From: a virus
IMG/VR virus record: IMGVR_UViG_3300037264_003623
Coordinates: 45,084 to 109,083 of that record
DNA: 64,000 nt
Reading direction: 5' to 3' (one strand)
Both the position numbers and the translations under genes were made by a program. Positions 3,259 to 34,804 of this stretch are shown here, in pieces (within the stretch, counting starts at the first letter, position 1; each line of letters starts with the position of its first letter). The notes beneath the pieces are model-generated. The model had not been told where the DNA came from. It did no database searches and saw only the letters and a program-made list of their open reading frames with translations.

Positions 3259-3273
3259 CGCACACGATGTGCG
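3259..3273. promoter_or_regulatory. Intergenic palindrome, copy 1 (CGCACA-CGA-TGTGCG)
   Basis: Perfect 6-base arms around a 3-base centre, immediately after the 3258 stop and before the ribosome site of the next gene. Three similar copies occur at 6790, 23909 and 48517. Its centre supplies an ATG (3267) opening a 9-codon frame that ends on the GTG start of the next gene, so a translational role is as possible as protein binding. Confidence 0.6.
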
Positions 3274-3292
3274 GAAACCGGAGGAATACCCC

Positions 3293-3976
3293 GTGAAAGA
3301 GCGCAAGGACAAGGACCTGGGCTCGATTTTCAACGCCAAGTCCCTCCTCGACGGGCAGGGGACCCCACAGCGGGACACCGCCCAGAGCAGGAAGGTCGCC
3401 CTGGACTTCGCCGGGATGCTCGCGAAGGATGGCACGAGCGAGGGTGCGAAGAAGGGCTGGGAAACTCGACGCGGCGCGGCAGCCCTGTCCGAGGGCCCCA
3501 AGGAGTTCAGAGACTTCATGGTAGGAGCCATCGCCCAGCGCGACACCCCTGATGCCAAGGCGACGAAGGAGATGGCGGAGAATCTCAAGGACAGTGATGT
3601 TCCCCTGAAGGATGCTTTTACCGCCGCTCAGAAACGGGTTGACCAGGCCGACGCCCTCGCCGGGGAGACCCTCAAGCGGTTCGGCTCCGCCCTTTCCCAG
3701 TATCACGTCGACAACATCAATCGCGAGCGGGAGACGATCAAGCGGGCCATGGATGTCGCCGACAGGCATGTCCGGGAGAACAGCCGGGGGTATGCCGCCG
3801 ACGCCATCAGCAACGCCGTCGAGGGCGCGGACCTCATGTCGATCTGGGCATCTTCCGCGGTCGGAGAAGTCTGGAAAAAGCAGACCCGGGAGAGGGGGGT
3901 GGGGAAGTCCGGCACTTCCGAGGGGGTCCCGAAGACCCTCAAGGGGTCGTTCCTGACCGAAGGCGACACACAATAG
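3293..3976 (+). CDS. Hypothetical virion-associated protein with GTSEGAKKGWETRR motif
   Basis: A 227-residue product if started at GTG 3293, which has GGAGG eight bases upstream; an in-frame GTG at 3269 lies inside the palindrome and has no ribosome site. The motif GTSEGAKKGWETRR occupies about residues 47-60. The rest is helical and charged, with no recognised domain. It is the third gene in a row in the motif-bearing block. Confidence 0.72.
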   Translation: MKERKDKDLGSIFNAKSLLDGQGTPQRDTAQSRKVALDFAGMLAKDGTSEGAKKGWETRRGAAALSEGPKEFRDFMVGAIAQRDTPDAKATKEMAENLKDSDVPLKDAFTAAQKRVDQADALAGETLKRFGSALSQYHVDNINRERETIKRAMDVADRHVRENSRGYAADAISNAVEGADLMSIWASSAVGEVWKKQTRERGVGKSGTSEGVPKTLKGSFLTEGDTQ

Positions 3977-4001
3977 GTTGCGTTTCCCATCCGGTTCCTT
4001 C

Positions 4002-4029
4002 TTGGCGAATACGCTAAAGGGTGTATAAT
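4002..4029 (+). promoter_or_regulatory. Promoter of the JAMM-domain gene, start on the ATG
   Basis: TTGGCG at 4002-4007, a 16-base spacer, and TATAAT at 4024-4029. Six bases separate the -10 box from ATG 4036, so the predicted +1 is the A of the start codon and the mRNA would be leaderless. No ribosome site lies in front of this ATG. Confidence 0.65.
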
Positions 4030-4035
4030 AGGATC

Positions 4036-5598
4036 ATGGAAGTGGGCGCGATCTATGACGTCCAGAAGGAAGGCACCTCCGAGGGTGCCTACCGCGGGTG
4101 GGAGACTAGGAGAGACGGCCCGAGGGCCGCCCCTTTCGTCGAAGCGCGGAGGAAGATTGGGAGCATGGTGGAGGAGGCCAACGAGGAGTTCAAGAGGGAG
4201 GTTGCTCTTCACCTGAAGGGTATCCCGAGCGACTACGCGGGGATGACACGCAGGGACAGGGAGAACAGAGCCGAAGGCCTGAGGCTCGTTCGGGATGCAG
4301 TCGAGAGACTGAGGGGGGCCGAGGTCGCGGAGGCGGACAGGGGTACGCTCGCCAGGATGATCGACTACGCGGAGCGGGAAGCCCCCATCATCAGCGAGCG
4401 CGACAAGGGGGACCGGAGGTGGCACGAGGAGTTCGACGCCTTCCTCGCCGAAGCCGAGGAGGTCGCGTCCAGGGCGAAGGAGCCCGAGGGAATGGAAAAG
4501 GGCGAGGTCGTCGTCTGGGAGCCGAGCAGGCATCCCCGGGGGGAGGGGGGCCGGTTCGCCCAGGCCGAGGCCAGGGATCCCGAGGAGAGGCGGAGGCTGG
4601 TCGAGTCCGCGGCGTCCGAGGCCGCCAGGCGGGTTATCGACAGCATGGGCCGAGACGCGAACAGGGTGATCTACGATACGGTGAGCGAGTTCGGCCTGTC
4701 CGGCAACGACGCGGCCGAGGCGTTCCAGATGGCCGACCGGAGGCTGCGGAAGGAGCGGGAGCTGGATGTGCTCCGCAAGGCCACTGGGGACCTGCTCTCG
4801 AAGGTCGAGTTCGAGGAGGACGAGCACCCGAGGGACCCCGCAGGCAGGTTCGCCTCCAGGGGAGAAGGGGTCGCGCCGAGGGCCGATGCCGTCTCGAAGG
4901 AGGAGATCGACAGGGTGTTCGACGGCAGGGCGAAGAACCCGAGCACGCCCGATGAGCAGAGCCGCCTGCACCAGGAGATCGAGGCCTCGGCGGACAGGGC
5001 GAGTCGGATGTCGCAGGAGGACCACATCTCCGGGGTGCCCGAGAGGATGACCAAGGTATCCGAGAGGGCGGAGGCCGTCGTGATGTCCCTCGGCAGGAGG
5101 ATCATGGAGGAGGGCGCAGCTAACTGGAAGGAGTTCGTCTTCGCGGTGGAGAACGGGAGCGGGGACGTGGTGGGGATGAGGGAGGGCGACAAGGAATCAG
5201 CGTCGTGCGTCGGGATCTACGGGGGGATGGACAGGGATAGGGGATACACGTTCGTCCACAACCATCCCACAAGCAACTCCTTCTCGGACGTGGACGTGAT
5301 CATATTCACTAGGATCCCCCAGTTTACGAGGGCGGTGGTGGTCAGCGGGATGTGGACGTACATTCTGGAGAAGCCGCCGGGGTGGAACTTCAGGAAGGTT
5401 TGGGGCGTGGACGATGCCAGGGCGGAGTACCTCCGCCAGAGCGACGTGCTGACGCCCAAGTACAAGCCCCCCGCCAACCCGGACGGGACGAGGGACGACG
5501 CCAGGGACAGGGTCGCGTGGCGGGAGCAGGGCCATGAGGTGATATCCAACCTGGCGAAGCTCTACGGGCTGTCCTACAGGAGGGAGAAGAGGGCATGA
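4036..5598 (+). CDS. JAMM/JAB-domain protein with GTSEGA and two HPR motifs
   Basis: A 520-residue protein. ATG 4036 is preferred over an in-frame GTG at 4021 because that GTG forms part of the -10 box. Order of parts: GTSEGAYRGWETRR at residues 13-26; HPRGEGGRFAQ near 166; HPRDPAGRFAS near 264; and a C-terminal JAB/MPN-like domain with HNHP at 408-411 followed by SFSDVD at 415-420. This matches the HxHP...SxxD zinc-binding pattern of JAMM isopeptidases and RadC-like proteins. Known members cleave isopeptide or peptide bonds or act as structural MPN domains; which applies here is not visible. The combination of two virion-type motifs with an enzyme domain suggests a protein carried in the capsid (inference). 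Confidence 0.75.
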   Translation: MEVGAIYDVQKEGTSEGAYRGWETRRDGPRAAPFVEARRKIGSMVEEANEEFKREVALHLKGIPSDYAGMTRRDRENRAEGLRLVRDAVERLRGAEVAEADRGTLARMIDYAEREAPIISERDKGDRRWHEEFDAFLAEAEEVASRAKEPEGMEKGEVVVWEPSRHPRGEGGRFAQAEARDPEERRRLVESAASEAARRVIDSMGRDANRVIYDTVSEFGLSGNDAAEAFQMADRRLRKERELDVLRKATGDLLSKVEFEEDEHPRDPAGRFASRGEGVAPRADAVSKEEIDRVFDGRAKNPSTPDEQSRLHQEIEASADRASRMSQEDHISGVPERMTKVSERAEAVVMSLGRRIMEEGAANWKEFVFAVENGSGDVVGMREGDKESASCVGIYGGMDRDRGYTFVHNHPTSNSFSDVDVIIFTRIPQFTRAVVVSGMWTYILEKPPGWNFRKVWGVDDARAEYLRQSDVLTPKYKPPANPDGTRDDARDRVAWREQGHEVISNLAKLYGLSYRREKRA

Positions 5599-6704
5599 AG
5601 GATCCGAAGGTGCCGATCACCGAGTGGGACATCGACGACCGCGGCAACGTGCCTCCCTACGGGAACGCCGTCGCGAAGGAGGGCACTTCTGAAGGGGCGA
5701 AGCTGGGATGGGAAACGAGGCGGGAGGGCGGACAGGCGGAGGAGAAGAAGCCGGACGCCTCATCCTTCGAGACGCCCCCCGAGAATTGGCAGCAAAGTCT
5801 GCCGTACCAGCATCGGCTGAACTTGGGTGCATGGACGGAGTGGCTCACCAACCTGAGGATGTCCCATGTCTACCGCCAGGGGGGCGAGGCCAAGCCCTAC
5901 CGGCCAGAGTTCGCCGACGTCGCGGCTCGGCGCGAGGTCGGGCGGTGGCTCGATCGCAACGACGATAAGATGATCTACCACATCTCGCGGAAGGTGGACA
6001 TCTCGCATGGGCCGAGGGACGAGAAGATCGGCGAGGCGGTCGGGCTGGTTCAGGAGATCGTTCGCATGGCCCAGGCCGAGGCGCGGAGGGAGGCCGAGAC
6101 GCAGGCCAAGAAGAACCCTCTGTCCGGCGTCCTGTTCGGGAAGGCCAGGGTCGTGGGCGGATTCCCACTCACGCAGGAGGACGCGCTCGCGAAGGAAGGC
6201 ACGTCCGAAGGCGCCAAGAAAGGGTGGGAGACCAGGCGCGAGGGCGGCGGGGCGCTATCCGAAGAGGAGCGCAAGAGGGCCATTCGATCCCTTGAGGTGC
6301 GGGGCGCGGCGGACAGGGGCGACGTGTCCGTGAAGATCGTCCCCCTTCTTACCGGGGAGGGGTTCGGGGTGGAGACCACGGTGGCTGGCGACAGGAGGAA
6401 CCCGAGGGAGCCCGCCATGACGATGGAGGAGGCACGCAGGTTCGCCCTGGAGCAGCTCCAGAGCCCCCGCCCGACCCAGACCCCCGAGATGAAGCCGAAG
6501 CCCGAGGCGGAGGAGAAGAAGCCCTCTCCGACGCCCGTGAGGCCCTACAGGAACCCCGGAGACTTGGCCGCCGACTACAAGCGGCAAGGTATCCCGAAGC
6601 AACGTGCCTGGGATCAGTTCATCATCGACACTGTCCTCTCCCCGAAGTTCCGGTCGGAGCAGGTGGACGCGAGGGAGTTCTTCCAGGCCTACGATAGGGC
6701 GTAG
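5595..6704 (+). CDS. Hypothetical virion-associated protein with two GTSEGAKxGWETRR motifs
   Basis: A 369-residue protein coupled to the preceding gene by ATGA. It carries the motif twice, at residues 30-43 (GTSEGAKLGWETRR) and 202-215 (GTSEGAKKGWETRR), each followed by EGG and a different sequence. The protein therefore looks like two motif-plus-domain units, followed by a proline-rich linker and a short C-terminal helical segment. No enzyme domain is recognised. The repeat inside one polypeptide suggests the motif is a movable tag or binding element. Confidence 0.75.
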   Translation: MKDPKVPITEWDIDDRGNVPPYGNAVAKEGTSEGAKLGWETRREGGQAEEKKPDASSFETPPENWQQSLPYQHRLNLGAWTEWLTNLRMSHVYRQGGEAKPYRPEFADVAARREVGRWLDRNDDKMIYHISRKVDISHGPRDEKIGEAVGLVQEIVRMAQAEARREAETQAKKNPLSGVLFGKARVVGGFPLTQEDALAKEGTSEGAKKGWETRREGGGALSEEERKRAIRSLEVRGAADRGDVSVKIVPLLTGEGFGVETTVAGDRRNPREPAMTMEEARRFALEQLQSPRPTQTPEMKPKPEAEEKKPSPTPVRPYRNPGDLAADYKRQGIPKQRAWDQFIIDTVLSPKFRSEQVDAREFFQAYDRA

Positions 6705-6818: not shown

Positions 6819-7397
6819 ATGGCGGAGGCGGGAGGAAGGGTTTGCTCGTGCGGCCATCCCGAGTCGTCGCACGACCGGTTCGGCTGCCACTATGGCGGCT
6901 GCCCTTGTCCCCGCTTCGACCCCTTGCCTTCCTTGGCAGAGAACTTCAAGGAGGTCATCGACCTTGTGCGCCTCGCAATCGAGCTGCACCCACAGCTCAA
7001 GATGTACTGGTATTACTCTCCTCGGGGTCACCGGCGCTACCTGATGCCCACCCGGGTTGGGAAGTCGAGGCGCTACTCGACGGGCACCCTGAAAGGTGAC
7101 ACGGAAGCGGCCCCCGTAGGGCTCGGATCCGGGTCGGCCGCGCCCTCAAACCCCTCCGGAATCGGTCGCGGGGCCGTCCAGGCTGCCCCCAGGAACCAGC
7201 GCGAAGCCTCTTGGGCCACTTCCCCGCATGGGCGCGGCGGCCTCCTCGCTCCGGGCCGCGGGCGCCGTCTCCCCTTCTCCATCAACGACTTGCATCCCAC
7301 CAGGAACCAGGACGCACACGCATACCCCCTCGATGGGTATGCGCCGGCTCTCAAAAACGTCGCAAGTCCTCGCGCACGAGGGATTTACGTCAGATAG
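6819..7397 (+). CDS. Small zinc-binding protein (CxCGH...H...CxC), long uncertain tail
   Basis: A 192-residue frame from ATG 6819; GTG 6798 inside the palindrome is an alternative start. The first 30 residues hold CSCGHPESSH then C...C-x-C followed by RFD, a compact Cys/His zinc-binding layout known from small bacterial and phage proteins. Residues about 40-75 (DLVRLAIELHPQLKMYW) are duplicated as a fragment at 8035-8136. The last 100 residues are low in complexity and may not be a folded domain. Function unknown; nucleic-acid or protein binding is the usual guess for such knuckles. Confidence 0.6.
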   Translation: MAEAGGRVCSCGHPESSHDRFGCHYGGCPCPRFDPLPSLAENFKEVIDLVRLAIELHPQLKMYWYYSPRGHRRYLMPTRVGKSRRYSTGTLKGDTEAAPVGLGSGSAAPSNPSGIGRGAVQAAPRNQREASWATSPHGRGGLLAPGRGRRLPFSINDLHPTRNQDAHAYPLDGYAPALKNVASPRARGIYVR

Positions 7398-7417: not shown

Positions 7418-7627
7418 ATGAGAGCGGAAACGAGTGAGGAAACGAGGTCCCCGACGAGGGTGATGTCGTCTGCCCTGGAGAAGGCGGGGTTCCGGGACCT
7501 GGGGGCGTACTTCCGGGCGAGGACGAGGGCGACGTTCGTCGTAATGTCAAGGGAGATGGGGGTTTCGGGCGAGACAGTGAGGCGGTGGTACAGGGATTGG
7601 TCGGGGGTGAACTCGGACTGCTCGTAG
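7418..7627 (+). CDS. Small helix-turn-helix-like protein
   Basis: A 69-residue protein with AGGAGG just before ATG 7418. The C-terminal half (MSREMGVSGETVRRWYRDW) reads as a short helix-turn-helix with the usual small residue and turn, so DNA binding is likely. It is divergent from any named repressor I know. It lies directly upstream of the ribbon-helix-helix repressor and its triple operator, so the two may form a small control unit. Confidence 0.65.
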   Translation: MRAETSEETRSPTRVMSSALEKAGFRDLGAYFRARTRATFVVMSREMGVSGETVRRWYRDWSGVNSDCS

Positions 7628-7652: not shown

Positions 7653-7756
7653 TTGCATGCCTCTTGGAGAGGCGTGTTATTCCCTTGATCCGCCTCTGGG
7701 AGAGGCGTATTATCCCCAGGAAAGCACTTGACCAGCCTCTCGGAGAGGCGTATAAT
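7653..7756 (+). promoter_or_regulatory. Three tandem promoter-operators of the RHH repressor
   Basis: Three copies of CCTCTNGGAGAGGCG followed by a -10-like hexamer lie at 7660-7680 (TGTTAT), 7693-7713 (TATTAT) and 7736-7756 (TATAAT). Each copy is an inverted repeat CCTCT-N-GGAGAGG filling the spacer between a -35-like hexamer (TTTGCA or TTGCAT, TTGATC, TTGACC) and the -10 box. Copy starts are 33 and 43 bases apart, close to three and four helical turns, so the sites face the same side of the DNA. The last -10 box is six bases from ATG 7763. This is a layout expected for autorepression by the adjacent protein. Confidence 0.75.
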
Positions 7757-7762
7757 AGAGAC

Positions 7763-8029
7763 ATGACCAGAACGAGGAAGCACACGAAGGAGATCCGGGT
7801 CTGGGTCACGCCGGAGCTCGACGCTCTGTTGGGGGAGAAGGCAGGGACGGAGGGCCGGAGCAAGTCCGATTTCGTGAGGAGGCTGTTGGAGGGGGTGCTG
7901 TCTCCAGGCCAGGCGGATTCCCATCGAGCGGCCCCCGCTGATGCTTCCTCCCGCGCCGCGCCTTGGGGGACATCGGTGAAGTTGACGCGGACCAGCATGA
8001 GCTCGGACGAGTTCCTGAAGGACACGTAG
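7763..8029 (+). CDS. Ribbon-helix-helix (Arc/MetJ-type) transcriptional regulator
   Basis: An 88-residue protein. The first 45 residues match the RHH fold: a basic start, the strand KEIRVWVTPEL, helix A, the turn GRSKSDFV, and helix B RRLLEGVL. The tail is alanine/proline-rich and then polar. The ATG is exactly where transcription from the third promoter should begin, so translation is probably leaderless; a longer open frame upstream runs through the operators and is not coding. Known RHH proteins bind as dimers of dimers to short inverted repeats in their own promoters, which fits the three operators directly upstream. Confidence 0.85.
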   Translation: MTRTRKHTKEIRVWVTPELDALLGEKAGTEGRSKSDFVRRLLEGVLSPGQADSHRAAPADASSRAAPWGTSVKLTRTSMSSDEFLKDT

Positions 8030-8034
8030 GATTC

Positions 8035-8136
8035 GACCTAGTGCGCCTCGCACTGGATCTGCACCCGCAACTCAAGATGTATTGGGATCACTCTCCACGT
8101 CGATGGAGGCGTCACCTGATCTGGAGGACGCGATGA
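8035..8136 (+). pseudogene. Duplicated fragment of the zinc-protein gene at 6819
   Basis: Read in frame, this stretch gives DLVRLALDLHPQLKMYW and a further 14 residues, closely matching the 6819 product (DLVRLAIELHPQLKMYW). It has no start codon of its own, begins straight after the RHH stop, and ends at a TGA overlapping the next ATG. It is probably the remnant of a tandem copy into which the repressor block was inserted. Confidence 0.65.
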
Positions 8137-10497: not shown

Positions 10498-11010
10498 ATG
10501 GTCGAGTACACCCACAAGTCGGCGGTCCTGTCCGAGGACGGGAAGTACCGGTACGTGTTGCGTCGCCAGTGGTCGATGTGCGATGCGACCCAGTTCTTCA
10601 CCCCCGTCTTCATATGCTTAAATCCTTCGACCGCCGACGAATCGGTGGACGACCCGACCGTCCGCAGGTGCGTGGGGTTCGCGAAGGCGTGGGGCTGGTG
10701 TGAGGTGACCATCCTGAACCTCTTCGCCCTGCGCTGCACCGACCCGAGGGGCCTGGTCGGCCATCCCGATCCTCGTGGCCCCGAGAACGAGAAACACCTC
10801 CTGGAGTTCGGAAAGTTCAACCAGGCGATCGCGTGCTGGGGCGTCGGTGGGGCGCTGATGGGAGAGGGGAAGAGGGTAAGCCAGATGCTCGCGTTCCACG
10901 GGTGCGAGCTTCTGCACCTCGGGCTGACGAAGGATGGGTATCCCAGGCACCCGCTGTATCTCCCATCCTCGGCGAGGCCGGTCTCGTGGGTGTGGCGAAG
11001 GAGGATTTGA
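10498..11010 (+). CDS. DUF1643 family protein
   Basis: A 170-residue protein matching the DUF1643 pattern: CLNPSTADESVDDPTVRRC, then GFAKAWGW, NLFALRCTDPRGL and a central GPEN. Length and order of these blocks fit the family, which is common in phages and bacteria but has no established activity. The stop overlaps the next ATG by one base (TGATG). Confidence 0.85.
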   Translation: MVEYTHKSAVLSEDGKYRYVLRRQWSMCDATQFFTPVFICLNPSTADESVDDPTVRRCVGFAKAWGWCEVTILNLFALRCTDPRGLVGHPDPRGPENEKHLLEFGKFNQAIACWGVGGALMGEGKRVSQMLAFHGCELLHLGLTKDGYPRHPLYLPSSARPVSWVWRRRI

Positions 11011-11495
11011 TGGACAGCTACGGTGACACGATGAAGCACATCGGCAGGGTGAGGGAGATCCTGTCGATCGTGGCGGAGAGGCTGAAGAATAGGGGAGTGG
11101 GCCACGACCGGTCCAAGCTGGAGTCTCCGGAGAAGGATGTCCTCGACGAGTTCACCCCGAAGCTGGCTGGGTCCGAGTACGGGGGCGAGGAGTACAAGGG
11201 CTTCCTCAAGGCGATGAAGCCTGCCCTGGACCACCACTACGCGGAGAGCCCTCACCACCCGGAACATTACCCGAACGGAATCAACGACATGACCCTGATC
11301 GATCTGGTGGAGATGATGGCGGACTGGGCCGCCGCGTCAGAAAGACACCAGAGCGGAAGTGTGGCACGGTCGGTCGAGGTGAACCGGAAACGGTTCGGGC
11401 TAACGGACCAGCTTGCCACCATCTTCCTCAACACCTACAGGGAACTGGGACTGCTTCCGAAACCGAACGATGCTGGCGCACAAGTCAAGGAATAG
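11010..11495 (+). CDS. DUF5662 family protein with a substituted 3' end
   Basis: A 161-residue protein. Residues 1-108 fit DUF5662 well: HIGRVREIL, HDRSKLESPE, YKGFLKAMKPALDHHY, HHPEHYPNGI, LIDLVEMMADW. From ASERH onward (base 11334) the sequence QSGSVARSVEVNRKRFGL still resembles the family but differs from the orphan tail at 12246-12380, which continues the same segment. The gene therefore appears to have received a replacement 3' end together with the antisense HNH gene. The end overlaps the HNH gene by 96 bases on the other strand. It is probably still functional. Biochemical role of the family unknown. Confidence 0.85.
   Translation: MDSYGDTMKHIGRVREILSIVAERLKNRGVGHDRSKLESPEKDVLDEFTPKLAGSEYGGEEYKGFLKAMKPALDHHYAESPHHPEHYPNGINDMTLIDLVEMMADWAAASERHQSGSVARSVEVNRKRFGLTDQLATIFLNTYRELGLLPKPNDAGAQVKE
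11334..11344 (+). repeat. 11-base repeat at the left junction of the HNH insertion
   Basis: GCGTCAGAAAG here and at 12246-12256. Both copies are in the same reading frame of the DUF5662 gene; the distance is 912 bases, exactly 304 codons. Joining at the repeat restores one uninterrupted DUF5662 frame. Confidence 0.7.
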
Positions 11496-12185
11496 CGGCT
11501 CATGAATCTTATTCTTCATGACATTCACGATCGAGCAGACGAACTGGAAGTTGCCGATCTCGTACCCGAGCCCGGAATCTATCCTATCAATGGACGGGCG
11601 GTACGGGGATGCCTTGTCCACGATCATCGTGATGCCGGACAGGGCGCAGATTCCTCCCTGGAGGAGGAACTGATGGTCGAGATCCTCCTTTGTCAGATTC
11701 CACTCGTGGCCCCGGCGTGCGGCGCTGAACTTCCAGGCGAAGATCAATCGTCCCGCAAAGTTCTCGGAGCCGGTCCAGTTCGCGGTTCGACCGCCGTGCA
11801 TCTTCATGACGGCGTGGCGAACGCACCGGGGGCACAGATTCCGGTCGAACACCTTCTTTCCGTGCTGGGGCGTATTCCTGATCAGATGCTTGCCGCAATC
11901 TTCGCAGGTGTACTCGATCAGAACGGTTCGGTCCCTGGAGGCGAAGCAGGAGCGGCACCACGACGAAAGACCGTCGCTGGAGCGAGAGTTCTTCGTAAAC
12001 GACGCGGCGGGTCTCATGACCCCGCAATGACTGCATGTCTTGGACTTTACCAAGCGCGGCGGTTGTCTCTGCGCCTCGACTTGGCACCGGTGCGAGCAGT
12101 AGACGCGGGTGTGGCACCTCGGATGGAAGACTTCTTTGCATGTGGGACAGATGATCGACGTGAGGTGATGATAGATTCGGGCCAT
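11400..12185 (-). CDS. HNH homing-type endonuclease, antisense in the DUF5662 gene
   Basis: A 261-residue protein on the minus strand with AAGGAGG before its ATG. The N-terminal two thirds contain several CxxC pairs (CPTC, CSHC, CSHCG, CRSC, CEDCG, CPRC) that form small zinc domains for DNA recognition. The C terminus has the HNH block CALSG followed by PSIDRIDSGLGYEIGN and N...KN, typical of phage free-standing HNH nucleases. Its coding sequence ends inside the substituted 3' end of the DUF5662 gene. It has its own promoter. Composition is visibly less GC-rich than the flanking genes, consistent with recent arrival. Confidence 0.85.
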   Translation of the reverse strand: MARIYHHLTSIICPTCKEVFHPRCHTRVYCSHRCQVEAQRQPPRLVKSKTCSHCGVMRPAASFTKNSRSSDGLSSWCRSCFASRDRTVLIEYTCEDCGKHLIRNTPQHGKKVFDRNLCPRCVRHAVMKMHGGRTANWTGSENFAGRLIFAWKFSAARRGHEWNLTKEDLDHQFLLQGGICALSGITMIVDKASPYRPSIDRIDSGLGYEIGNFQFVCSIVNVMKNKIHEPLFLDLCASIVRFRKQSQFPVGVEEDGGKLVR

Positions 12186-12215: not shown

Positions 12216-12243
12216 ATTATACCTGATAGCAGCTACAAGGCAA
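12216..12243 (-). promoter_or_regulatory. Promoter of the antisense HNH gene
   Basis: On the minus strand TTGCCT (12243-12238), 16 bases, TATAAT (12221-12216), then a leader with AAGGAGG and ATG at 12185. Confidence 0.6.
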
Positions 12244-12245
12244 TA

Positions 12246-12380
12246 GCGTCAGAAAGGCACATCACGGGGGATGTGCTCAAGAGCATCGAGATCAACACGA
12301 AGCGGTTCTCGATCTCTCCCCAGCTCGCGGCGATTCTGGTGAACACGGTGAGGGAGATATGGCCGAAGAAGGAGGGGTAG
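12246..12380 (+). pseudogene. Orphaned original 3' end of the DUF5662 gene
   Basis: Starts with the second GCGTCAGAAAG and reads ASERHITGDVLKSIEIN, then KRFSISPQL and a normal family C terminus, ending at TAG. It has no start codon of its own and continues exactly the frame interrupted at 11344. It marks the right edge of the HNH insertion. Confidence 0.8.
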
Positions 12381-12617
12381 ATGCCGATTCTCAGCATCGA
12401 GATCACCTGCTTGAAGACGCGGTGCGAGGGGTGCTACCACTGCCACTATGGGAAGGAGCGCAGGCTTGTCCCGGACATCACCTGTTCTCTCTTCGGTAGG
12501 GCGCTCCAGGCCCCGGGCGGGAGCCCGCTGCGCCTGAAGCAGTGCGTAGCGGCGGAGGCAAGGGCGCACCTTACCGAGACGGCGCGTAAGGCCCTGGCGA
12601 TGTGCGGGGTGGTGTGA
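12381..12617 (+). CDS. Hypothetical cysteine-rich protein
   Basis: A 78-residue protein starting directly after the orphan tail, with GGAGGGG in front. The pattern C...CEGCYHCHYG in the first 26 residues suggests a metal-binding knuckle; two more cysteines follow. No family recognised. One-base overlap with the next gene. Confidence 0.65.
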   Translation: MPILSIEITCLKTRCEGCYHCHYGKERRLVPDITCSLFGRALQAPGGSPLRLKQCVAAEARAHLTETARKALAMCGVV

Positions 12618-14474: not shown

Positions 14475-14546
14475 GCCAGCGTGGCGCAACGGTAGCGCGG
14501 CGGTTTTGTAAATCGCAGGTTGGGAGTTCGAGTCTCCCCGCTGGCT
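14475..14546 (+). tRNA. tRNA-Thr(UGU)
   Basis: Seven-base acceptor GCCAGCG pairs with CGCTGGC, D arm GCGC...GCGC, anticodon loop TTTGTAA gives UGU, T loop TTCGAGT. CCA is not encoded. A run of six T follows (14552-14557). It stands apart from the main tRNA operon. Confidence 0.92.
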
Positions 14547-14662
14547 CTCGGTTTTTTCAGGATTCCTTGCCCAATCCCCGGGTTCTCCGTCATTCCTTGT
14601 CACGGATTCTCGTACATAGGGATGTGAGGGGCGAAGTGAAACGCCCCGAAAGGAGGACGGAG

Positions 14663-14872
14663 ATGGGCAGGTTCTACGACTTTTTCGATGAGGTGGACGG
14701 GATCGGCAACCTAGTCAACGCCGAGGCGATCCTGGGGGAGAGGTACTTCCAGGAGGGGTACAGGGGCAAGGCGCTCCGCCGGAAGGTCCGGTGGGCGATG
14801 ATCATGATCCGGCACATGGATCGGCTCGACATGGCCGACGTTGTCCCCCTCTGGGAGATGGAGGTGGGGTAG
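14663..14872 (+). CDS. Hypothetical small protein
   Basis: A 69-residue protein. AAAGGAGG lies seven bases before ATG 14663, which decides the start over upstream in-frame codons. Helical, with a basic centre (RKVRWAMIMIRHMDRLD). No known family. Confidence 0.7.
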   Translation: MGRFYDFFDEVDGIGNLVNAEAILGERYFQEGYRGKALRRKVRWAMIMIRHMDRLDMADVVPLWEMEVG

Positions 14873-14902
14873 AATGGGAGGTGGACCTTCGGGGGCCGAC
14901 CG

Positions 14903-15073
14903 ATGGAAGACAGAGACAAGCCCTGGTACCACTGGCAGATCCGGTGCCAGGAGGATGGGGACGACGGGTGGACGTGCATCGCTAACATCAACGGGGGCAA
15001 GGCGGGCCCCTGCATGTTCAGGAGCAGGGGTGAGGCGGAGAGGAAGTGCCCCGTCTACAAGCCGGAGGGATGA
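14903..15073 (+). CDS. Hypothetical 56-residue protein
   Basis: Starts MEDRDKPWYHWQIRCQ and ends CPVYKPEG, with four cysteines spaced across the chain that could bind a metal. Codon choice (GC in third position) matches neighbours. Its stop lies in the loop of the terminator hairpin. Confidence 0.6.
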   Translation: MEDRDKPWYHWQIRCQEDGDDGWTCIANINGGKAGPCMFRSRGEAERKCPVYKPEG

Positions 15074-15088
15074 CCTCCGATTTTTTTT
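15063..15088 (+). terminator. Rho-independent terminator
   Basis: CGGAGG (15063-15068) pairs with CCTCCG (15074-15079) around the stop codon, followed by A and eight T. It closes the preceding operon directly in front of the next promoter. Confidence 0.8.
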
Positions 15089-15098
15089 GTTTTCCCCC

Positions 15099-15126
15099 TT
15101 GACGAAAGGGACGAAACGCATATAAT
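15099..15126 (+). promoter_or_regulatory. Class I promoter
   Basis: TTGACG, spacer AAAGGGACGAAACGCA, TATAAT, then ATGAGTGTCAAGAGCGAAGGAG. Contains the direct repeat GACGAAA-GG-GACGAAA. Confidence 0.88.
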
Positions 15127-15154
15127 ATGAGTGTCAAGAGCGAAGGAGATGATG

Positions 15155-15385
15155 ATGGCCGAGACGACGACCCTGACGGCGGAACAGCAGAAGGAGTTCG
15201 TGAGGCTGGTGGGGGCGCTCTCCCCGGAGAACCTGTACTGCGACGGCGAGATCTCGCACGCCCAGGGCGTCAAGAAGTACAAGGCCCTGCGGAAGCAGTG
15301 GTGGGCCCTGGAGATCAGGGTCGGCCGCAAGGTGACCGAGGACGAGGTGTGGGCGGCCCACATGGCCGAGAATCGAAAGGAGTAG
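15155..15385 (+). CDS. Hypothetical protein, class I operon leader gene
   Basis: A 76-residue protein. Three in-frame ATGs lie at 15149, 15152 and 15155; the third has the best distance from GAAGGAG. Helical and charged, no cysteine cluster beyond one residue, no known family. Confidence 0.7.
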   Translation: MAETTTLTAEQQKEFVRLVGALSPENLYCDGEISHAQGVKKYKALRKQWWALEIRVGRKVTEDEVWAAHMAENRKE

Positions 15386-15741
15386 AGGCCCCCTGGAAGA
15401 GGGGAGGGAGGGGCGCTGGCCGATCCGCAGGTAGCCGGTGCCCTATGCTCCGGGGGATGCGGGCCCCTGGCTTGTCCTTCCACGCAGGCCTCCGTCGCCC
15501 CTACGGTGGCGGAGGACCTGCGGGTGGGCTCGGTTCTCCTCTCTTTCAGCGGGCTTCTGGGGAAGCGGACAGAAAATGATCTCAGGGGGCCAGCCAGCGC
15601 CGGTTCCCGCCACGGTACTTGGAGTCGTGGGATCGGGGCCGATAAGCGTGGGCCGTGGAGGCCAGCGGCAGGAGGGGGGCCAAGCCTCTGAATGTCGTCG
15701 CGGGTTCGAGGCCCGTCCCTGGGGCCAGATGCGTGGGGGTC
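15386..15741 (+). ncRNA. Gene-free structured segment, possible non-coding RNA
   Basis: No convincing gene over 356 bases on either strand. A long hairpin at 15483-15522 pairs CGCAGG and an adjoining 11-base arm with GGTGGCGGAGG and CCTGCG (17 pairs, one bulged A, five-base loop). Near the right end, GCGGG-TTCGAGG-CCCGT (15700-15716) is a perfect tRNA T arm followed by CCCTGGG-G-CCA, but I could not fold a matching D or anticodon arm. It would be transcribed from the 15099 promoter. A tRNA-like or tmRNA-like relic and a new small RNA are both possible. Confidence 0.35.
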
Positions 15742-15879
15742 ATGATGAAGCGGTTCGAGAACAAGGTCGATACCGACGCGGACTGCGTCCGGGCCGGGCC
15801 TCCGATTCCCCCTCCGGGGTGCGAACTCTCGTTCGTGAGGAGGATGGTGGCCTTGTGGCGGGAGAGGAGCAAGCGATGA
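15742..15879 (+). CDS. Hypothetical 45-residue protein
   Basis: Starts MMKRFENKVDTDADC (ATG 15742 or 15745) after GGGGGT and overlaps the next ATG. A proline-rich centre is followed by a basic helix. Accepted mainly because of the ATGA overlap. Confidence 0.5.
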   Translation: MMKRFENKVDTDADCVRAGPPIPPPGCELSFVRRMVALWRERSKR

Positions 15880-16139
15880 CCGAATCCAAGGGAGAGCCGA
15901 CGGGATTCCTGGCGGGGAAGCGGTACCGCAGGATGGCGCTGGCGCAGCACGTCATGGTGGTCGCCGTGTTCGACCTGGAAGTGGGGGACTGGTCGGCCTA
16001 CATCGACGCCGTGCCGGGGAACGACCACGCGGCGGAGTGGGGGTCCGTGGTGGACCATGGCGACAAGATCCCGAAGGACGTAGCGGCGGTGCTGTTCCCC
16101 GGCCTCGCGGCGGACAAGGGGCTGAAGTGGAGAGAGTGA
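15876..16139 (+). CDS. Hypothetical protein
   Basis: An 87-residue protein with a beta-rich core (MVVAVFDLEVGDWSAYIDAV). Start overlaps the previous stop, and its stop overlaps a GTG start (GTGA). The open frame continues far upstream but that part is the structured segment. No known domain. Confidence 0.68.
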   Translation: MTESKGEPTGFLAGKRYRRMALAQHVMVVAVFDLEVGDWSAYIDAVPGNDHAAEWGSVVDHGDKIPKDVAAVLFPGLAADKGLKWRE

Positions 16140-16405
16140 CGGAGGAAGAGATGGCCTTGCCGATGGAAGGGGCGAAGCTCGACCTCTGCCGGGAGGCGGT
16201 GAAGACGCTCCCCGAGAGGGCCTGTGCCTACTACGCCGAGAGGTTTCGGCGGGGTTTCATGGAACAACATCGCCCAAGCCCCGACGACGCGGCCCTGGAG
16301 ATCTACCGCTACGCCTTCTTAGGGGAGAAGCCCCCGAGGCGGTTCCGTGAACTGGTCAGGCCGATCCTGGTGGCGTTGAGGTTCGCGGCAGATGGAGATG
16401 ATTGA
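16136..16405 (+). CDS. Hypothetical protein
   Basis: An 89-residue helical protein started at GTG 16136 (ATG 16151 is possible). Segments CREAVKTLPERACAYYAERF and RFRELVRPILVALRF recall the 16655 product (EEHLQPVLDRLRAL), so the two may be distant paralogues. Function unknown. Confidence 0.65.
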   Translation: MTEEEMALPMEGAKLDLCREAVKTLPERACAYYAERFRRGFMEQHRPSPDDAALEIYRYAFLGEKPPRRFRELVRPILVALRFAADGDD

Positions 16406-16658
16406 GATCCTGCGGCGGCTGGGTACCGTCGAGAAGAGGAAGGGGGGAGTCCTGCGAGACGGGATGCAGATAGGGATGATCCGTCTTGTTCTTTTCTCGG
16501 ACGGGAGCGGGGAGGTGCAGGCGGACTGGGCCAAGTATGACGAGGAAATGTGCCGGGAGGAGAAACTTCTTCATGCGATATTCTCGGTCGACGGTCCTAT
16601 CTTCGAGTTTGAGAAGATCGAGCAGTTAGAGGCGTGGCTGGTGGAGCAGAGCGGATGA
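16392..16658 (+). CDS. Hypothetical protein
   Basis: An 88-residue protein overlapping the previous gene by 14 bases (8 if ATG 16398 is used). Mixed alpha/beta, acidic C terminus. No recognised family. Confidence 0.65.
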   Translation: MEMIEILRRLGTVEKRKGGVLRDGMQIGMIRLVLFSDGSGEVQADWAKYDEEMCREEKLLHAIFSVDGPIFEFEKIEQLEAWLVEQSG

Positions 16659-16942
16659 ATGAGCATGGAGGGCCGGACTCGAAGGTGATGTCCAGGTGGG
16701 AGGAGTGCTACTTCGCCGCCAAGGATCTCCCGTCGTTTGTCTGCGTCCGTCTTGCCAGGAGGACTCGGGCGAGGATGAACTGGACGGCGGGGGGGTCGAC
16801 GGAGAGCGTTGCGGCCTCGGAGATCTACGCGATCGCCTTCGAGGGGGTTCCGATCCTTCGTAGCGTCGAGGAGCATCTTCAGCCGGTCCTCGACCGGCTC
16901 AGGGCGTTGCAAGTGGCCGAGAGGATGATGGGCGATGAGTAG
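16655..16942 (+). CDS. Hypothetical protein
   Basis: A 95-residue protein, ATGA overlap at its start. C-terminal helix EEHLQPVLDRLRALQ resembles the end of the 16136 product. No named domain. Confidence 0.65.
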   Translation: MNEHGGPDSKVMSRWEECYFAAKDLPSFVCVRLARRTRARMNWTAGGSTESVAASEIYAIAFEGVPILRSVEEHLQPVLDRLRALQVAERMMGDE

Positions 16943-17171
16943 AGACCTCAAGTGCAGGACATGCGGGGAGTGGATGAAGGAGATTGCCTGTCACGAGGAC
17001 TCCAACGCTCGCGACTGGATCACGATGTGGTGCCCGGAGTGCGGGACCATCTGCGGATCCTTCGAGTCGGTGTCAGGTCCGCAGGATTACCACTGGGAGT
17101 TCCCGAAGATGGCATCCCTCCCCGAGGTCGGGGCCGCACTTTCTCTCATGCGTGACAGGAACAAGGGTTGA
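16935..17171 (+). CDS. Hypothetical zinc-ribbon protein
   Basis: A 78-residue protein with CRTCG near the start and CPECG about 27 residues later, a plain zinc ribbon. The last codons contain the -35 box of the tRNA promoter (TTGACG overlaps the stop). Confidence 0.7.
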   Translation: MSRDLKCRTCGEWMKEIACHEDSNARDWITMWCPECGTICGSFESVSGPQDYHWEFPKMASLPEVGAALSLMRDRNKG

Positions 17172-17195
17172 CGGAGAGGCGAAACCGCCTATAAT
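17168..17195 (+). promoter_or_regulatory. Promoter of the tRNA operon
   Basis: TTGACG, spacer GAGAGGCGAAACCGCC (16), TATAAT. The next ATG (17202) lies six bases after the -10 box, the same distance as at the four other start-on-ATG promoters. Confidence 0.8.
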
Positions 17196-17201
17196 AGGGT
17201 C

Positions 17202-17312
17202 ATGAAGATCGGTGCTGACATCCGCGAGGGAAACCGGGGGGCGGCCACGCTCCTCTGGTCCAGCACCACGCCAACATCATGCCTTAGCTTCCACTACCCG
17301 CTGTCCTTGTAG
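17202..17312 (+). CDS. Possible leaderless 36-residue peptide in the tRNA operon leader
   Basis: ATG on the predicted +1, then MKIGADIREGNRG and a serine/threonine-rich end, stop TAG 17310-17312. There is no ribosome site. It may be a short translated leader or chance. After it, from 17314 to 17353, GCCGCCAG pairs with CTGGCGGC, and CCC-CTTC-GGG forms a small hairpin, so the leader RNA is structured up to the first tRNA. Confidence 0.35.
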   Translation: MKIGADIREGNRGAATLLWSSTTPTSCLSFHYPLSL

Positions 17313-17377
17313 GGCCGCCAGGCCTCTTCGACTCGGTTCCTTGGTCTGGCGGCGGAAACCCCTTCGGGAACCACTGC

Positions 17378-17462
17378 GGGCAGGTCGGATAGCGGCAAGT
17401 CCACCTGGCTGTAAACCAGGCGCCTCAGGCTTACGTGAGTTCGAGTCTCACCCTGCCCACCA
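17378..17462 (+). tRNA. tRNA-Tyr(GUA)
   Basis: Acceptor GGGCAGG/CCTGCCC, anticodon arm CCTGG-CTGTAAA-CCAGG, long variable arm as in bacterial tRNA-Tyr, T loop TTCGAGT, discriminator A and encoded CCA. Confidence 0.95.
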
Positions 17463-17537
17463 CGCGCTGTGGCCCAGTCTGGCTAGGGCGCCTGCTTCGG
17501 GAGCAGGAAAACGCCGGTTCGATTCCGGCCAGCGCGA
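17463..17537 (+). tRNA. tRNA-Pro(CGG)
   Basis: Acceptor CGCGCTG/CAGCGCG, D stem GCCC/GGGC, anticodon arm CCTGC-TTCGGGA-GCAGG, T arm GCCGG-TTCGATT-CCGGC. CCA not encoded. Starts on the base after the Tyr CCA. Confidence 0.93.
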
Positions 17538-17538
17538 T

Positions 17539-17615
17539 GCTGGGATAGCTCAGACGGTAGTAGCACTGGACTGAAAATCCAGGTGTCGCCGGTTCGATTC
17601 CGGCTCCCAGCGCCA
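17539..17615 (+). tRNA. tRNA-Phe(GAA)
   Basis: Acceptor GCTGGGA/TCCCAGC, D arm GCTC...GAGC-like, anticodon arm CTGGA-CTGAAAA-TCCAG, T arm GCCGG-TTCGATT-CCGGC, encoded CCA. Confidence 0.92.
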
Positions 17616-17703
17616 GCGGAAGTGGCGGAACGGCTAACGCACCCGGTTCAAGGCCGGGCGGCTCGAAAGGGCCTTGCGGGTTCGAGTCCCGCCTTCCGCA
17701 CCA
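17616..17703 (+). tRNA. tRNA-Leu(CAA)
   Basis: Acceptor GCGGAAG/CTTCCGC, anticodon arm CCCGG-TTCAAGG-CCGGG, long variable arm, T loop TTCGAGT, encoded CCA. Confidence 0.92.
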
Positions 17704-17787
17704 GGGCGAGTGGTGGAGTTGGCAGACACCTGTGTTTGAGGGGCACAGGCCCGAAAGGGCATGCGGGTTCGACCCCCGCCTCGCCCA
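17704..17787 (+). tRNA. tRNA-Leu(GAG)
   Basis: Acceptor GGGCGAG/CTCGCCC, anticodon arm TGTGT-TTGAGGG-GCACA with a terminal U-G pair, long variable arm, T loop TTCGACC. CCA not encoded. Same anticodon as the disrupted copy that begins two bases later. Confidence 0.88.
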
Positions 17788-17789
17788 TT

Positions 17790-17823
17790 GCCGGGGTGGT
17801 GAAGTTGGCAGACGCGCTGGCAT
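17790..17823 (+). pseudogene. 5' half of a split tRNA-Leu
   Basis: GCCGGGG acceptor strand, leucine-type D arm and the 5' anticodon stem CTGGC, then an abrupt end where the next tRNA begins. The matching 3' half lies at 18501-18555. Confidence 0.85.
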
Positions 17824-17907
17824 GTTGGAGTGGCGTAATGGCTAACGCACCGGACTCAGGATCCGGGTCCGAAAGGACACCTGTGGGTTCGACTCCCACC
17901 TCCGACA
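17824..17907 (+). tRNA. tRNA-Leu(CAG)
   Basis: Acceptor GTTGGAG/CTCCGAC (one U-G pair), anticodon arm CCGGA-CTCAGGA-TCCGG, variable arm GTCC/GGAC, T loop TTCGACT. CCA not encoded. It lies between the two halves of the split tRNA-Leu, just before the HNH promoter. Confidence 0.92.
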
Positions 17908-17915
17908 TTAAAGAC

Positions 17916-17944
17916 TTGGCAGACTCATAGGAACGGGTTATAAT
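17916..17944 (+). promoter_or_regulatory. Promoter of the HNH gene in the tRNA operon
   Basis: TTGGCA, 17-base spacer, TATAAT, then a 26-base leader with AGGAGG before ATG 17971. Confidence 0.7.
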
Positions 17945-17970
17945 ATGTCGTCCAAGTAGGAGGACGACAG

Positions 17971-18504
17971 ATGAGAAGGGAAGAGGATCTGCGAAGGGTG
18001 GTTTCCGAGTGCGTGTCTTTTGCCCAGGTTCTTCGACGTTTGGGATTGAAGCAGGCTGGCGGAAGTCAGAGCGAGTTGAAGAAGAGGGTGGAGGCGCTCG
18101 GGATAAGCACAAGTCATTTCCTTGGCAGGAGGACGAACTCGGGGGCGCACCATCGCGGCGGGTGCCCCAAGAAGGCTTGCTCGGAGGTATTGGTTCGTAG
18201 CGTGAGGCGGCATCCCTACCTTCTTCGCCGGGCCTTGCTCGAATCGGGGAGGGAGTACCGCTGCCAAGGAGACGGTTGCCCGGTAAGGGATGAATGGCTT
18301 GGGAAGAAGATCGTCTTGCAGGTGGATCACGTTGATGGAGACAGGAGCAACAATAGGGCTTCCAACCTTCGATTCCTTTGCCCCAACTGTCATTCGCAGA
18401 CAGGCAACTGGGGAAAGAACGAAGGGGGAACGGATCTGACCACTAACGCGAGGCAGTGCCAGAACTGGAGACGGAAACGCCGGGAAGCATCGGGCACGGT
18501 TTGA
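17971..18504 (+). CDS. HNH homing-type endonuclease inside tRNA-Leu
   Basis: A 177-residue protein. The N terminus (FAQVLRRLGLKQAGGSQSEL) reads as a small helix-turn-helix-type DNA-reading part. The C terminus holds the HNH block LQVDHVDGDRSNNR, NLRFLCPNCHSQT with H-N-N residues and a CxxC zinc knuckle partner (CQGDGC). The stop codon falls within the first bases of the 3' tRNA half, so the gene fits tightly between the halves. The gene is less GC-rich than flanking genes. Confidence 0.9.
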   Translation: MRREEDLRRVVSECVSFAQVLRRLGLKQAGGSQSELKKRVEALGISTSHFLGRRTNSGAHHRGGCPKKACSEVLVRSVRRHPYLLRRALLESGREYRCQGDGCPVRDEWLGKKIVLQVDHVDGDRSNNRASNLRFLCPNCHSQTGNWGKNEGGTDLTTNARQCQNWRRKRREASGTV

Positions 18505-18555
18505 GGAGCCAGTGCCCGAAAGGGCGTGCGAGTTCGACCCTCGCCCCCGGCACCA
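18501..18555 (+). pseudogene. 3' half of a split tRNA-Leu
   Basis: Loop end TTGAGGA, stem GCCAG (pairs with CTGGC at the 5' half), long variable arm, T arm GCGAG-TTCGACC-CTCGC, CCCCGGC (pairs with GCCGGGG of the 5' half), discriminator A, CCA. Joining the halves gives a normal tRNA-Leu with anticodon GAG whatever exact junction is chosen. Confidence 0.85.
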
Positions 18556-18556
18556 T

Positions 18557-18630
18557 GTGGTCGTGGTCCAGCGGTAGGGCGCTTGGTTGTGCCCCAAGAG
18601 ATGGCGGTTCGACTCCGCCCGATCACCCCA
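18557..18630 (+). tRNA. tRNA-His(GUG)
   Basis: Acceptor GTGGTCG/CGATCAC with one G-U pair, anticodon arm CTTGG-TTGTGCC-CCAAG, T arm GGCGG-TTCGACT-CCGCC, C73 and encoded CCA. The base before G1 is T, so the usual genome-encoded G-1 facing C73 is absent. Confidence 0.9.
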
Positions 18631-18706
18631 GCCCTCGTAGCTCAGTTGGTAGAGCGGCGCTTTCGTAAAGCGCAGGCCGCAGGTCCGATGCCTGCCGGGG
18701 GCTCCA
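18631..18706 (+). tRNA. tRNA-Thr(CGU)
   Basis: Acceptor GCCCTCG/CGGGGGC, D arm GCTC...GAGC, anticodon arm GCGCT-TTCGTAA-AGCGC, T arm GCAGG-TCCGATG-CCTGC, encoded CCA. The T loop has C instead of the near-universal U55. Confidence 0.9.
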
Positions 18707-32040: not shown

Positions 32041-32068
32041 TTGACGAAAGGGAGAAAACAGATATAAT
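32041..32068 (+). promoter_or_regulatory. Class I promoter
   Basis: TTGACG, spacer AAAGGGAGAAAACAGA, TATAAT, then ATCGGTGTCAAGAGCGAGGAGG. A T run lies at 32024-32030. Confidence 0.88.
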
Positions 32069-32095: not shown

Positions 32096-32497
32096 ATGGG
32101 CTGGTTGTTCATGTTCGAGATGGCGACCCGCAAGGCGATGATCGCCGATCGGATCGCCCCCCAGGAATGGGTGAACCCGGACGGGACCAAGTGCTCCCAA
32201 ACGACCCTCGCCCACACGTTCAAGGGGTCCCCCTTCGCGGGGGTCCTCTACTACGTGCGCGAGACCCGGATCGGCGAGAAGACCGATCGGTTCATCCAGA
32301 TCGACCTCCTCAGGTACTCCAAGACAGACGGCCCCGGGTGCTGGGGCTACAAGGACATGACAGAAGAATGCGGACCAAACCACGTATCATGCCCCCGCAG
32401 TTATTTGGGCATGGTTCCTTGCCCTGACAATCAGATCGCAAGAGCATGGCGGGGTAGAGTATTGGCATGGCATGATGAAAGATACAAAATTACTTGA
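32096..32497 (+). CDS. DUF6927-like protein with a substituted 3' end
   Basis: A 133-residue protein. The start MGWLFMFEMATRKAMI, the middle LAHTFKG...FIQIDLLRY and WGYKDMTEE fit the small family I know as DUF6927 (name from memory). After TEE (base 32368) the sequence changes to CGPNHVSCPRSYLGMVPC in an AT-richer style, whereas the expected family end MGPCYYGCPLKYLEMVPC lies orphaned at 33114. So the gene has a replacement tail delivered with the HNH gene that follows. Probably still functional. Confidence 0.82.
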   Translation: MGWLFMFEMATRKAMIADRIAPQEWVNPDGTKCSQTTLAHTFKGSPFAGVLYYVRETRIGEKTDRFIQIDLLRYSKTDGPGCWGYKDMTEECGPNHVSCPRSYLGMVPCPDNQIARAWRGRVLAWHDERYKIT

Positions 32498-32523
32498 CAG
32501 CGGGGGGAATGATTTTGTATCCT
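32494..32523 (+). promoter_or_regulatory. Promoter of the HNH gene at 32530, start on the ATG
   Basis: Consensus TTGACA at 32494-32499, 18-base spacer, TATCCT at 32518-32523, six bases, ATG 32530. The -35 box overlaps the stop of the preceding gene. No ribosome site. Confidence 0.6.
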
Positions 32524-32529
32524 AAACAC

Positions 32530-33114
32530 ATGAAAACAAAAACATGTAGCCGATGCGGCAGGAACCTTCCGGCCACAGAGGAATTTTTCTTCAGAAAAAG
32601 CAAGAGGACCGGCTGGTTGTCGGGGTGCCGGGACTGCCGAAGAGTTTTGTCGAGGGATGCTTATCGCAATCGCAACAGAATCAATCACGGAAGGCTGCAA
32701 AAACTGGAGGAGCTTAGAGTCTGGAGGAGCAAGTACGGCCTCCGGAAAAAGGCGGCACAGAGGTCACATGACCCAATCGGTTATTATGCGTCTGTCATGT
32801 TCAATTCTTCTTACAGGGCATCTCTTCGTAAGAAGATACCGCATACCATTACCAGGGCATGGATCCGGCAACAGTTAGACAAGGGGATATGCTCGGCAAC
32901 TGGGCTACATTTTAGATTTCCGAAACCAGAGGAAGGGAACCTTATAGGGCGGGATCCTTACCGGCCTTCACTTGACAGAATAGACAACACCAAGGGGTAC
33001 ACCCCGGATAATAGCAGAGTAGTTCTTTGGTGGTACAACGTCGCCAAGGGGCCTTGGTCGGACGAAGAGATGCTGGTCTTGGCGGAGGCGGTAGTCCGTT
33101 ACGTAAGACGATGA
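32530..33114 (+). CDS. HNH homing-type endonuclease behind the DUF6927-like gene
   Basis: A 194-residue protein. N-terminal CSRCGRNLPATEEFFFRKSK and CRDCRR form a zinc domain of the type seen in phage HNH enzymes; the C terminus has CSATGLHF, then PSLDRIDNTKGYTPDN and WWYN.AKG, the HNH block. ATG 32530 is preferred; an earlier TTG is part of the -35 box. The gene is clearly AT-richer than its surroundings, as is the substituted tail upstream. Related in layout to the 11400-12185 enzyme. Confidence 0.88.
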   Translation: MKTKTCSRCGRNLPATEEFFFRKSKRTGWLSGCRDCRRVLSRDAYRNRNRINHGRLQKLEELRVWRSKYGLRKKAAQRSHDPIGYYASVMFNSSYRASLRKKIPHTITRAWIRQQLDKGICSATGLHFRFPKPEEGNLIGRDPYRPSLDRIDNTKGYTPDNSRVVLWWYNVAKGPWSDEEMLVLAEAVVRYVRR

Positions 33115-33269
33115 TGGGGCCCTGCTACTACGGGTGCCCCCTCAAGTACCTGGAGATGGTGCCCTGCCCGGACAGTCAGTACGCCCGCGAGTGGCGGGAG
33201 GTGGTGAAGCGGTGGTGGGCGGTCCAGCGGGAGCGGAGGCAGGAGCGCAAGGCGAGGCAATCGGCGTGA
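33111..33269 (+). pseudogene. Orphaned original 3' end of the DUF6927-like gene
   Basis: From ATG 33111/33114 it reads MGPCYYGCPLKYLEMVPC and then a basic helix, the normal end of the family. The first ATG overlaps the HNH stop, so it might be translated as a 51-52-residue peptide. Removing 32369-33113 restores one continuous gene. Confidence 0.78.
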
Positions 33270-34727: not shown

Positions 34728-34748
34728 TCGTTTTTTTTTGCTTTCCTC

Positions 34749-34776
34749 TTGACGAAAGGGAACAAACGGATATAAT
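34749..34776 (+). promoter_or_regulatory. Class I promoter
   Basis: TTGACG, spacer AAAGGGAACAAACGGA, TATAAT, then ATGAGTGTCAAGAGTGAGGAG. Nine T in a row lie at 34731-34739, right after the upstream stop. Confidence 0.88.
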
Positions 34777-34804
34777 ATGAGTGTCAAGAGTGAGGAGTAG
34801 GACG

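Follow-up and report, generated by a model that had tools for sequence, protein, structure and literature searches.

A homing endonuclease gene that occupies conserved coding sequence would be expected inside an intron or intein; failing that, it should split or break its host gene. In fungal mitochondria, mobile endonuclease ORFs replace the C-termini of atp6, atp9, cox2 and nad3, and the native ends are displaced; the hosts are Allomyces macrogynus (atp6), Glomus sp. (atp6, atp9, cox2 and nad3) and Rhizopus oryzae (atp9) (PMC3630166). Co-conversion of flanking sequence is established for phage homing (PMC2988022). The free-standing Seg and Mob endonucleases of T4, like the element described below, lie beside conserved genes, and their transfer is by break repair with co-conversion of the flanks (PMC2988022). 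Classical intronless homing in T4 places the endonuclease gene between intact genes or splits a gene, and a duplicated, displaced end is not mentioned (PMC2988022). Duplicated gene ends also go unmentioned in two reviews that deal with T4-type genomes and the homing endonucleases they carry. The accessible part of a 2025 study of Skunavirus describes where PacI-like HNH genes are inserted and no replacement of gene ends (PMC12724721); nor does that of a phage nuclease gene study from 2023 describe such a layout.

The window analysed here is a stretch of 64,000 nucleotides, bases 45084-109083 of a 109,083-bp IMG/VR virus record. Near 32 kb it encodes an HNH endonuclease between two versions of the end of one gene, and a second example lies near 11 kb (Table 1). 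The 32-kb element is quite likely a homing endonuclease cassette without an intron, in which the HNH gene is paired with a divergent copy of the C-terminal end of the gene that it invaded. The fungal ORFs and the putative phage cassette have in common a divergent imported C-terminus fused in frame and a native end downstream of the ORF (PMC3630166). At 32 kb the endonuclease ORF lies between the apparently imported and displaced ends, and the former is diverged and foreign in composition. The nucleases differ, being LAGLIDADG or GIY-YIG enzymes in the mitochondria (PMC3630166) and PacI-like HNH enzymes in the phages. Hybrid transcripts have been demonstrated in fungal mitochondria (PMC3630166), whereas the phage hybrids are predicted from sequence.

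Table 1. Features of the two gene-end replacement loci in the window.
Feature	Positions	Strand	Remarks
DUF5662 gene with substitute tail	11010..11495	+	Tail from about 11334; Pfam DUF5662, E 1e-32
HNH endonuclease gene of the 11-kb element	11400..12185	-	3' end overlaps the substitute tail
Displaced native tail of the DUF5662 gene (probable)	12240..12382	+	Second copy of the gene-end repeat
Native head of the invaded gene	32096..32368	+	91 codons; family phrog_21047
Substitute tail, probably imported	32369..32497	+	Continues the reading frame of the head and has its own stop codon; left edge at about 32354-32371
PacI-like HNH endonuclease gene	32509..33114	+	201 aa; alternative starts TTG 32494 and ATG 32530
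Displaced native tail (probable)	33114..33269	+	51 open codons; ATG start overlaps the HNH stop codon

The hybrid ORF formed by the head and the substitute tail (32096-32497) encodes 133 aa, with the C-terminal end CGPNHVSCPRSYLGMVPCPDNQ... The HNH gene closes with TGA at 33112-33114, and its last base doubles as the first base of the ATG with which the displaced tail, MGPCYYGCPLKYLEMVPCPDSQ..., begins. The two gene ends, CGPNHVSCPRSYLGMVPCPDNQIARAWRGRVLAW and MGPCYYGCPLKYLEMVPCPDSQYAREWREVVKRW, are homologous, with 19 of 33 residues identical (58%; BLASTP E 2e-13) and an alignment score of 108 against a maximum of 52 among 5000 shuffles. Together with the pair at 11 kb, they are among the few close gene-end repeats recovered when the window was compared with itself in six frames.

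A sequence-only reading of this DNA had proposed that deleting 32369-33113 rejoins GAA GAA with ATG GGG. In-silico removal of this interval confirmed both the coordinates and the frame. The same reading took the gene to be normal up to base 32368 and to continue into an AT-richer tail; the AT-rich tail is borne out, the exact edge is not. The codons ACA GAA GAA before the junction are already of AT type and TAC AAG GAC ATG are not, so the left junction can be placed only at about 32354-32371. The naming of the target as DUF6927-like had to be given up: DUF6927 (PF21992) reaches 12.9 bits in Pfam against a gathering cut-off of 27 (E 0.11), and phrog_21047, a family of unknown function, is the better match. 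A fold search with the protein of the invaded gene gave no convincing match and no functional clue.

Sequences resembling sigma-70 promoters were identified at two places near the gene. A strong match (TTGACG, 16 nt, TATAAT; 11/12) lies at 32041-32068, just upstream of the invaded gene, and a stretch resembling it occurs again near 34729-34803. Another match (TTGACA, 18 nt, TATCCT; 10/12), at 32494-32523, bridges the substitute tail's end and the start of the HNH gene; the HNH cassette might thus possess a promoter of its own.

Codon composition distinguishes the two tails. GC at third codon positions (GC3) is 0.94 in the head (82 of 87 codons), which is the usual style of this genome, and 0.96 in the displaced tail (49 of 51). 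It is only 0.41 in the substitute tail (19 of 46), and the HNH gene has 116 of 201. The head does not differ from the displaced tail (p = 1.0) and differs strongly from the substitute tail (p = 3e-11); the two tails differ from each other (p = 1e-9), and the substitute tail and the HNH gene are close (p = 0.05). The 745-bp insert as a whole falls at the 0.2 percentile of GC in the window. The displaced tail is also the better fit in 29 of the 36 homologues from IMG/VR, all of them distant. From composition and homologue fit together we conclude that the substitute tail most likely arrived with the HNH gene and that the GC-rich tail was displaced. The two tails are more alike than either is to any homologue; therefore, the recipient lineage and the donor were probably related. 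The displaced tail, being open and in good codon style, may still be expressed.

These values also bear on whether two tandem paralogues flanked the HNH gene and the second lost its head by deletion, so that its tail only seems displaced, which is the circumstance that the sequence-only reading had named as contrary to its proposal. The same order of gene, HNH and tail would be expected from such a history. Yet it is within the upstream gene that the composition changes, the head and the second tail are alike in composition, and the second tail begins right at the HNH stop codon with nothing left of another head in front of it. We regard this history as decidedly improbable.

Uninterrupted homologues were identified in Microcystis phage Mvi-JY20, in Raoultella and Klebsiella Vequintavirinae and at 36 IMG/VR loci, a few of which are near-identical to one another. 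All read through the junction and none carries an insertion, so the comparison with intact homologues that had been suggested for this gene turned out in favour of an insertion. Together with the homology of the tails and the matching composition of head and displaced tail, it bears out the originally proposed HNH insertion with a replaced tail. Against the joined protein, the Mvi-JY20 homologue is 39.6% identical over residues 11-120. Searches yielded no close relative of this phage in which the site is empty; thus the pre-insertion state rests on distant homologues (at most about 40% identical). The junction lies within the block that is most conserved among the homologues, YKDM[TD]E[ESD]|[MC]. 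Homing sites are usually located in the most conserved block of a gene.

Precise restoration of the frame upon excision of 32369-33113 is also what a self-splicing intron or intein that carries the HNH gene would give, with splicing to rejoin the head to the native tail, and a related HNH does lie inside the annotated two-piece DNA polymerase gene of phage Bas89. No group I or group II intron was matched in the insert with Rfam, permissive filters included, and in-frame stop codons close the reading frame and exclude a simple intein. Furthermore, the first 33 codons of the insert encode a homologue of the gene's own tail, for which an intron would have no need. An intron or intein at this site is therefore very improbable. 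The 32-kb HNH instead resembles a free-standing endonuclease, as the nuclease is intact and no intron or intein was detected.

Could the head and the displaced tail both still be used? The HNH stop codon overlaps the ATG of the displaced tail, which is open and has host-style codons, so that this part might be translated by stop-start coupling (TGATG) and join the protein, the first tail being incidental. Phage genes with functional halves are known, namely the nrdA, topoisomerase and gene 43 examples split by homing endonuclease genes (PMC2988022). The split genes in that account lack a duplicated end, however, and here a complete homologous tail is fused in frame to the head. In the AlphaFold2 model of the hybrid protein (mean pLDDT 93.2), the new tail accounts for the terminal helices, with values mostly of 92-96; the protein is thus predicted to fold well with the substitute tail as a proper C-terminus. 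An open displaced tail is equally expected after a recent insertion. We consider a split gene with both parts in use to be unlikely.

The 32-kb HNH protein groups with the phrog_3322/1035 endonucleases (phrog_3322, E 1e-24). A search of IMG/VR with this single sequence recovered no close relatives. A profile built from eleven HNH relatives matches PacI (3ldy; E 8e-6), and PacI is also the top structural match of the model (pLDDT 89.9; Foldseek E 1.4e-3, probability 1.0, TM 0.37-0.50). Residues P153, S154, D156, R157, G163, Y164, N168 and N177 are invariant across 36 HNH sequences, which indicates that the D-R...GY...N core is intact and PacI-like. PacI shares this pattern and is the best fold match, but is itself a restriction enzyme.

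From the sequence we infer that the nuclease cleaves and homes and that the hybrid gene is expressed. During mixed infection, the target of the HNH enzyme would be an allele without the insertion, cut within or close to the conserved YKDM-E-E/M-G-P block. Repair of the break would then copy the HNH gene and the adjoining end of the donor gene into the recipient, with the left exchange inside the conserved block and the right side stopping at the native ATG. Insertion would cost little because the imported tail would keep the protein working. The cassette-bearing allele would be immune because its tail has diverged, with many synonymous changes, and because the native tail has been set apart, so that the cut site is no longer contiguous. 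The cassette would serve its host gene as a self-splicing intron or intein would, without splicing.

The locus at 11 kb follows the same logic in a different gene and with the HNH gene on the opposite strand, as had been claimed for it and as the six-frame self-comparison of the window confirmed. Its tail repeat (11328-11447 and 12240-12359) is 55% identical over 40 aa, and the tract of 15 bases GCGTCAGAAAGRCAC is present at both ends of the insert. The two HNH proteins of the window are 33% identical. Relatives of the DUF5662 gene were found at three loci only in IMG/VR.

The HNH family was surveyed in IMG/VR using loci collected with a DNA motif for the DRxD-GY core. About 240 loci were tested, and the left and right flanks of every HNH gene were compared at the protein level. 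Four further clear cases were identified, one in which a tail is replaced (L259) and three mirror images in which a head is replaced (L072, L106 and L205). In line with the suggestion, made from the window alone, to look for the same junctions in other phages, the layout logic recurs in unrelated phage contigs. Orderly layouts with the HNH gene exactly between the copies, at two independent sites here and on four other contigs, leave a very slim chance that the arrangement is an assembly chimera of two related phages, an origin suggested by the fact that the source record is an IMG/VR contig.

In L259, the gene for the T4-type clamp loader subunit gp62 (phrog_225, E 6e-37) has a substitute tail of 62 aa. 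The displaced gp62 tail starts at the HNH stop codon and lies directly before regA (phrog_242, E 8e-61). As this is the normal position of the gp62 end, it too speaks against the second tail being the remains of a tandem paralogue. The first 14 residues are the same in both tail copies, yet 8 of the 14 codons differ. When the joined gp62 was used as a query, at least 80% of it was matched in one place in 911 phage records.

The three mirror-image loci have the order displaced gene head, HNH, and new head, the last being fused to the remainder of the gene. Their targets are ThyX (L072), a Pyr_excise-domain protein annotated as DNA-binding (L106) and a tape measure protein (L205), the last being the weakest of the four survey cases with a head of only 13 residues. 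Head replacement is seen in the phage cases; the accessible part of the report on the fungal mitochondrial ORFs makes no mention of it (PMC3630166). Over all six pairs of ends together, there are 81 synonymous and 71 non-synonymous codon differences.

A loose flank test had a background of 13 tight matches among 1283 control ORFs, mostly paralogues or repeats, and we therefore claim no enrichment from it. Under a strict test, in which one copy must end a longer gene and the other be a stub, 3 of 241 HNH loci and 2 of 1348 controls were positive (p = 0.03), and one of the two controls is a pair of neighbouring HNH genes; these thresholds were chosen after the first cases had been seen, and they miss both window cases and L205. 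Given this background and the choice of thresholds, the claim rests on the anatomy of each case. Gene-end replacement is found at roughly 2% of the loci of this PacI-like HNH family.

Other survey loci were assigned differently. In five loose matches (L077, L081, L139, L153 and L168), the HNH gene lies between high-light-inducible (HLI)-like genes, presumably of cyanophages, which are probably ordinary paralogues, and another (L167) has two adjacent HNH domains and looks ordinary. No end duplication was seen in the annotated phage loci with related HNHs (L012-L021). At seven loci of isolated phages (L012, L013, L016, L017, L018, L020 and L021), the HNH genes end at the next start codon or overlap it by a few bases; their neighbours include the DNA polymerase region, terminase, dCMP deaminase and other genes. 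These positions fit a family that would land at gene starts or bring a new gene head.

On balance, we favour the view that these loci represent a general class in phages, in which a PacI-like HNH gene would travel with a divergent but functionally equivalent 3' or 5' gene end. The 3'-end members would plausibly be the two window loci at 32 and 11 kb and gp62, and the 5'-end members those in ThyX, the Pyr_excise-domain protein and the tape measure gene. In the literature searched, the coverage of which excluded most subscription papers, no phage precedent was found, and "undescribed in phages" is provisional. Equally provisionally, the cassette follows a known logic in a new biological setting; its nuclease is of another family, and there is also a form that replaces gene heads. 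If this is correct, a phenomenon known from a handful of genes in fungal mitochondria extends to phages, another nuclease family and both gene ends, and besides introns and inteins there would be a third means, the imported gene end, by which selfish genes could occupy conserved coding sequence harmlessly. The replacement end carried by the cassette would solve the problem of host-gene damage without splicing. Such cassettes would also make mosaic genes in one step, could explain some of the truncated fragments beside phage HNH genes, and suggest a testable route to target-site immunity.

Several other features of the window were recorded. Part of a gene is repeated at a third place (6957-7046 and 8032-8121), with copies of 30 aa about 1 kb apart (70% identity, E 7e-10). 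There is no HNH gene between these copies; a possible helix-turn-helix ORF (7418-7627) and a ribbon-helix-helix-like ORF (7664-8029) are located there, preceded by units of cctctyggagaggcgt repeated at about 7657-7755. Copies of a motif resembling AKEGTSEGAKxGWETRR, up to 85% identical, occur at several places within 4 kb (2437-6263). Also encoded, at 14475-18706, are nine tRNA genes, for Thr, Tyr, Pro, Phe, Leu (three), His and Thr.
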